From contig CANFST010000006.1 in NCBI GenBank assembly GCA_947449695.1, positions 1 to 64,000 on the forward strand: a stretch of 64,000 bases of DNA, given 5' to 3'. This DNA comes from Chitinophagales bacterium. GTDB lineage: Bacteria; Bacteroidota; Bacteroidia; Chitinophagales; CAIODY01. The first letter of the stretch is position 1, and each line of letters opens with the position of its first letter. The notes under the pieces are model-generated. The model was not told the DNA's origin, did no database searches, and saw only the letters and a list, made by a program, of their open reading frames with translations. Position numbers and translations under genes: made by a program. Positions 62,941-64,000 of the stretch are shown here, one piece after another.

Positions 62941-63027
62941 ATCAAAACGCATTAATAATATTCCGCTGATTTGAAAAATACTCGTCTTTTTTTTTATCCA
63001 ATTCATTGCTAAATATTTACTCACATA

Positions 63028-63036
63028 TTATCCACA
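63028..63036 (+). promoter_or_regulatory. DnaA box 1
   Basis: TTATCCACA, identical to the high-affinity DnaA box of E. coli. Confidence 0.6.
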
Positions 63037-63117
63037 CCCAACTTGCGAAGCCCTTATTTTATGCAGCTTTTGCCATGAAACACAACAACCGAAAGCATTT
63101 GCTCATGCAAGTATTTC

Positions 63118-63138
63118 TTATCCACACTATGTGTAAAA
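63118..63138 (+). promoter_or_regulatory. DnaA box 2 with inverted near-match
   Basis: TTATCCACA (63118-63126) is followed after 3 bp by TGTGTAAAA (63130-63138), whose complement TTTTACACA matches the box at 8 of 9 positions. The pair also contains the palindrome ACACTATGTGT. Confidence 0.6.
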
Positions 63139-63435
63139 ATTAAAAAGCGGTTGGGCTTTTTTTGAGCCTAAGTTTGGATATACATTTGTTGTCCCTCAAG
63201 CAAAGTTTTTTGCGATTAACCATCACATAAAAATTGAGCCGAAGAAACCAAGTAATACCATCTTCGCAAAATGCTAAAAGGGAAATCAAAATTGTATCGA
63301 AGAAAATTTTTGTACTGAAAATTTTCAAGGAACTAAAAAAAGTTGGTAAAGTCCGACAGGAAATTGTATCCAAAATACTTTTCTATATGATTTTATCATG
63401 AATAAATTATAAACCTAATTAAAAGGAAATTAAAC

Positions 63436-64000
63436 ATGGCAAAAACAAAAGAATCAACAAGTGGTATGAAATACAACCGCTATTACACGGTGGAGGGCAT
63501 AAACGTGTTCGACATGTTTGAGTACGAATTGCGTACTAGTGTTATTAAAGACACCAACGGAAAAAATGTGTTTGAGATGAATGGTGTGGAGGTTCCAAAA
63601 ACTTGGAGCCAAACTGCTACCGACATTTTAGCGCAAAAATATTTCCGCAAAGCTGGTGTGCCGCAACCTGATGGAACTACTGGACCTGAAAAATCAATTA
63701 AAGAAGTAGCTCACCGTATGGCAAACTGTTGGAAAGTGTGGGGTGAAAAATATGGCTATTTTGCTTCAGAGCAGGATGCACAAGTATTCTACGATGAGTT
63801 GATATATACTATTGTAGGGCAGTTTGCTGCGCCCAATTCACCACAATGGTTCAACACAGGTTTGCACGAAAGTTATGGCATTACAGGCAAACCACAAGGA
63901 CACTACTATGTTGACCCAGTGGACAGAAAATTAAAAAAATCAACTTCTGCATACGAACGTCCTCAACCACATGCTTGCTTTATATTAAGTGTGGATGATG
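63436..64000 (+). CDS. nrdJ: Vitamin B12-dependent (class II) ribonucleotide reductase, N-terminal fragment
   Basis: 188 residues are visible before the right edge. The start MAKTKESTSGMKYNRYYTVE leads to the ATP-cone-like and N-terminal reductase region; FAAPNSPQWFNTGLHESYG is the signature of the large NrdJ family, in which the substrate-binding barrel begins, and HACFILSVDD contains the first redox-active Cys region. The enzyme reduces ribonucleoside di- or triphosphates with adenosylcobalamin as radical source. The rest is outside the window. The upstream region carries two DnaA boxes. Confidence 0.88.
   Translation, partial: MAKTKESTSGMKYNRYYTVEGINVFDMFEYELRTSVIKDTNGKNVFEMNGVEVPKTWSQTATDILAQKYFRKAGVPQPDGTTGPEKSIKEVAHRMANCWKVWGEKYGYFASEQDAQVFYDELIYTIVGQFAAPNSPQWFNTGLHESYGITGKPQGHYYVDPVDRKLKKSTSAYERPQPHACFILSVDD

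Follow-up and report, generated by a model that had tools for sequence, protein, structure and literature searches.

Paired DnaA boxes before the class II ribonucleotide reductase gene nrdJ point to probable DnaA control in Bacteroidota

Background

Control of ribonucleotide reductase (RNR) genes by DnaA is established for the nrdAB genes of E. coli, which encode a class Ia enzyme, and repression by ATP-DnaA at high level has been described there (PMC8203912). DnaA has also been seen by ChIP at the E. coli class III genes nrdDG (PMC8203912, PMC11317965), and upstream of both nrdA and nrdD it binds paired boxes that are 2-3 bp apart, with tandem double boxes being required (PMC11317965). An action of DnaA on RNR genes has in addition been proposed for Bacillus subtilis and Caulobacter (PMC8203912).

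The locus that we discuss here, in a member of the Chitinophagales, has DnaA boxes paired at 2-3 bp ahead of an RNR promoter, with TTATCCACA as the strong half, and in this it resembles E. coli nrdAB and nrdDG (PMC8203912, PMC11317965). It differs from them in that the gene, nrdJ, is for a class II, vitamin B12-dependent reductase, in having a -7 element of the Bacteroidota type, and in that neither another RNR type nor NrdR was detected in the genome. Of the two pairs, the distal one has the tandem geometry to which E. coli is restricted and the proximal one is head-to-head. The likeness to B. subtilis and Caulobacter is that DnaA has been proposed to act at RNR genes, but those are in other phyla and a class II reductase was not reported there. 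There is also a likeness to the NrdR regulon, in that control is dedicated to RNR promoters, but nrdR was not found here.

We consider it probable, on the sequence evidence given below, that DnaA regulates nrdJ through these boxes. In the literature, with subscription journals incompletely covered, we found no earlier report of DnaA control of a class II RNR or of such control in Bacteroidota, and what is new here is the class II reductase, the phylum and the head-to-head pairs at a recurrent distance from the promoter.

The double boxes in the gap before nrdJ

The window, by which we mean the whole 64,000-nucleotide stretch analysed, ends within nrdJ, the 5' part of which is at 63436-64000 on the plus strand and belongs to a 1097-aa open frame on the contig. 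Between nrdJ and an msrA-type gene on the other side there is an AT-rich gap of 495 bp (62941-63435), which by simple tiling of open reading frames is the longest without genes in the window, as the preliminary description had said, the runner-up being 465 bp. The two perfect DnaA boxes that it had reported 90 bp apart in this gap are indeed exact copies of TTATCCACA, both on the plus strand, at 63028-63036 (box 1, distal) and 63118-63126 (box 2, proximal). The weaker match mentioned upstream of them is best read as TTACTCACA (63017-63025, plus strand), which has 1 mismatch in the site scan and lies 2 bp ahead of box 1. What had been taken for an inverted near-match past box 2 is TTTTACACA (63130-63138, minus strand; box 3), in fact a full match to TTWTNCACA.

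The four sites make up two double boxes, one distal and in tandem with a 2-bp spacer (63017/63028) and one proximal and head-to-head with a 3-bp spacer (63118/63130). The proximal pair forms a perfect palindrome, and is the sole exact occurrence of TTWTNCACA-N3-TGTGNAWAA in our own genome. Downstream of it there is a -7-like element of the form TAnnTTTG, TAAGTTTG (63169-63176, plus strand), which box 2 precedes by 51 bp and box 3 by 39 bp, counted start to start, and a second -7-like element, TACATTTG (63181-63188, plus strand), which alignment shows to be kept within the family.

In the congener G001 box 1 is at the same place with the same 90-bp spacing to box 2, which is also kept, and the distal tandem pair is present as well. 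The genome itself has a second nrdJ, on the 15.7-kb contig C66 (G000:C66:1681-2238; L020, L163), with 90% identity over the first 188 aa and the same box architecture. This is either contamination by a close strain or a paralogue. In the alignment of the window with G001 and contig C66, box 2 is kept on C66 and the distal tandem pair has a degenerate counterpart there, TTACCCACA and TAATCCACA, with identical spacing. The long nrdJ leader of the window also includes a perfect 9-bp inverted repeat, GAAAATTTT/AAAATTTTC (63302-63326), that is nearly intact in G001 and missing from contig C66.

A chance coincidence of two 9-mers would be the simplest explanation, and TTATCCACA is present 27 times in the genome. 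However the reversed control is present 39 times, so that there is no enrichment genome-wide and the box pair is a local feature. None of 5000 dinucleotide shuffles of the gap had two copies, and 1 in 1000 attained the score of the cluster, results that rule chance out. With a box also kept at 62 of 83 nrdJ loci, as discussed below, we put its probability at practically nil.

Conservation upstream of nrdJ

The preliminary description had proposed alignment of the gap in related genomes, and in most Bacteroidota loci there are boxes before nrdJ. The upstream regions came from whole-genome relatives and genome contigs and comprise 83 loci, nearly all labelled Bacteroidota; a separate comparison group has 15 nrdJ loci, mostly from more distant lineages. 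The 62 loci referred to above have TTWTCCACA within 350 nt upstream of nrdJ (shuffle mean 1.4, maximum 5), and the looser TTWTNCACA is found within the same distance in 70 of the 83, against 6.7 in shuffles, while 13 of the 83 have degenerate boxes only. The corresponding figures for the distant group are 2 and 3 of 15, and reversed controls are at background.

The result does not depend on a motif chosen beforehand, as the top over-represented 6-mer found de novo is TCCACA, present in 73 loci against 11 expected. After removal of similar upstream regions the box is still there in 53 of 73. Upstream of nrdJ the box density is 165 times what the remaining sequence of these loci has, and the aligned sites have 89-100% identity (the alignment being anchored on the site itself) with the flanks at 30%, which is the random level. 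Four loci, including those of Mucilaginibacter and Daejeonella (L024, L028, L032 and L087), have an extra plus box exactly 78 bp ahead of the proximal minus box.

Position relative to the promoter element

The boxes often recur at set distances from TAnnTTT[CG], which we take to resemble the Bacteroidota -7 element TAnnTTTG. The start of the box is 50 or 51 bp upstream of this element for 23 of 48 plus boxes and 38 or 39 bp upstream of it for 16 of 26 minus boxes; the two distance classes together account for 39 of 74 strong boxes and every other distance has 3 or fewer. As the halves of a pair are offset by 12 bp, boxes of both orientations occupy the same spot. In our own genome TGTGNAWAA-N28-31-TANNTTTG is found once, at nrdJ. 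Across 41 genomes the box plus -7 architecture has counts above the reversed control, and the downstream genes other than nrdJ form no consistent set. Among them are genes that by eye are ruvB-, mutS- and smc-like (L210, L213 and L228), in one genome each, and these may be due to chance.

This spacing bears on the suggestion that the boxes serve mainly to titrate or reactivate DnaA, in the manner of datA or DARS, with their position before nrdJ being incidental. In E. coli, datA and DARS are indeed characterised by strong boxes that come in pairs at places other than oriC (PMC11317965). However titration needs no such spacing, and the recurrent distance to the -7-like element, together with the fact that in one genome after another the boxes are confined to the nrdJ promoter, argues for transcription control and makes titration as the main role very unlikely.

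Pair geometry and the identity of the binding protein

With regard to the pairs themselves, head-to-head partners are enriched, with 21 at an offset of 12 (3 bp apart) and 8 at an offset of 11 (2 bp apart) against a background of about 1.5. Tandem boxes with a 13-bp period number 11 against about 1.1, and E. coli-type tandem pairs 2-3 bp apart are found in 4 loci only. The 41 genomes have 8 exact head-to-head pairs (1 for the reversed control), of which 4 precede nrdJ, 1 precedes another class II RNR gene and 1 is in a congener's putative oriC.

It could be argued from this geometry that the element is the operator of another dimeric transcription factor, which took over RNR control in Bacteroidota that lack NrdR, and that the palindrome TTWTNCACA-N3-TGTGNAWAA merely resembles inverted DnaA boxes. 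The perfect palindrome in the window, the enrichment of inverted partners at 2-3 bp and the scarcity of tandem pairs of the E. coli type would all fit, since a head-to-head proximal pair is also expected from a dimeric repressor or activator and the double boxes of E. coli are in tandem. However among the 17 loci with the minus orientation one of the two halves never varies and its partner is essentially unconserved, and conservation of one half alone disfavours a symmetric dimer. The occurrence of extra single boxes and of the tandem boxes with 13-bp period also tells against it, as does the presence of the same pair inside dense origin-like box clusters. A further point is the tolerance for particular letters: substitutions around the consensus are mainly at positions 3 (A or T) and 5 (any base), with position 4 and most others strict, and the other frequent variants are TTWTCAACA and some at positions 1 and 7. 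This pattern resembles that of a DnaA box. We therefore think another dimeric factor unlikely, though it is the alternative to which we give most weight.

We infer that the binding protein is DnaA. The genome encodes one on contig C73 (TIGR00362, 510 bits), and its DNA-binding domain is intact, with the domain IV signature GGRDHSTVIHSC. The box variants TTATCAACA and TAATCCACA recur in the putative origin of the same genome, and three genomes of the genus also have a head-to-head pair with 3-bp spacer in their putative oriC. We had considered autoregulation of dnaA as an independent DnaA target, but the region upstream of dnaA has no significant box cluster in the shuffle test and so provides no independent DnaA-controlled promoter for comparison. 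A further match to the DnaA family, weak at 27.9 bits and possibly another AAA+ protein, is located about 28 kb away from nrdJ (G000:C6:91019-91306; L023).

The replication origin

The preliminary description had offered as a possibility that the gap belongs to the origin of chromosome replication. The gap is AT-rich and gene-free, and a cluster scan, which covered 1.61 of the 3.14 Mb, ranks it second for density of DnaA boxes. However the densest cluster in that scan is elsewhere, a result that the preliminary description had itself named as telling against an origin here. It is in the 482-bp gap between nadD and nadA on contig C10, with 13 sites of 1 mismatch or fewer (0 of 1000 shuffles), and the nadD-nadA gap is also rich in boxes in the congeners G001 and G002 (0 of 1000 for each). 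Our own genome, in 99 contigs, is too fragmented for whole-chromosome skew, and GC skew was sampled instead in G025, a near-complete relative from the same order whose assembly has two contigs. The sampled values stay below zero as far as 1.22 Mb and are above it from 1.35 Mb onwards. The sign changes near 1.345 Mb, beside nadD (1.337 Mb) and about 0.5 Mb from nrdJ (0.836 Mb). Contig C6 has no lasting skew switch at the gap, and in species after species the position of the boxes follows the nrdJ promoter.

The argument from gene orientation, that nrdJ and a ribosomal gene block leave an origin here in opposite directions, is not supported either. The distance to the block exceeds 30 kb, and the genes between are on mixed strands. 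We thus regard an origin at the nrdJ gap as extremely unlikely, and the nadD-nadA gap (G000:C10:10833-11314; L188) as the likely oriC of the genus. With bacterial oriC in general the nrdJ gap shares a clustering of DnaA boxes, strong and weak, in AT-rich DNA, but its boxes are few and are locked to a promoter, and there is a denser cluster elsewhere.

RNR genes and other regulators

A search with TIGR00244 gave no match for NrdR in the genome, with positive controls, and neither NrdB nor NrdD was detected in it. Given these absences NrdJ is apparently the only RNR type of the cell. An NrdR regulon was rejected as explanation for the conserved sites, as the nrdR gene was not found and the motif conserved de novo is a DnaA-type box. 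A B12 riboswitch or other leader RNA was rejected on the Rfam results, with no covariance match to a cobalamin riboswitch or any other Rfam leader RNA close to nrdJ, whether in the window or at 19 related loci. Single-sequence folds of the leaders have no common structure.

The class I nrdB promoters of Bacteroidia have a moderate enrichment of boxes (18 of 47, against 3.8). The nrdB promoters of other Bacteroidia (L234, L235, L248-L251 and others) often have TTATTCACA on the minus strand, about 90-220 bp upstream. For NrdJ_Z, another class II subtype, the figure in the wider class is at background (2 of 30 against 2.4), which indicates that the link to the box is specific to the lineage or the gene, and NrdJ_Z was set aside as a source of independent support. 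One member of the order (G022; L130) has an NrdJ_Z gene with two head-to-head pairs about 450-530 bp upstream.

It is possible, if on balance doubtful, that in the Bacteroidota without NrdR DnaA would be a general RNR regulator, acting through a lineage-specific head-to-head double box that is common to oriC and RNR promoters and replaces the E. coli tandem.

Proposed control of nrdJ and its significance

The proposal of the preliminary description that DnaA controls nrdJ is strongly supported at the sequence level, by conservation across Bacteroidota and the fixed distance to the promoter element. We suggest that DnaA would bind the proximal, head-to-head pair (63118-63138), immediately ahead of the promoter, with the distal tandem double box (63017-63036) assisting, and that transcription of nrdJ would be set by how much DnaA there is and by its nucleotide state. 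At the ordinary level of DnaA, or in its ADP-bound form, contact with the polymerase would raise transcription. ATP-DnaA at high level may dampen it, as in E. coli nrdAB. We somewhat favour this scheme, in which DnaA mainly activates, as the pair is upstream of the -33 region and not over the promoter. The presence of the same sites at the same place in most relatives suggests that the supply of dNTPs is probably coupled to the start of chromosome copying.

The footprint of about 20 bp and its exact spacing make the proposal testable in relatives that are available in culture, for example Chitinophaga, Mucilaginibacter and Niabella, and the analysis has as a by-product a candidate oriC, nadD-nadA, for the genus. 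If DnaA does control nrdJ, then the direct coupling of initiation to dNTP supply would extend to the class II reductases with their dependence on B12, and also to a phylum in which little is known of RNR regulation.
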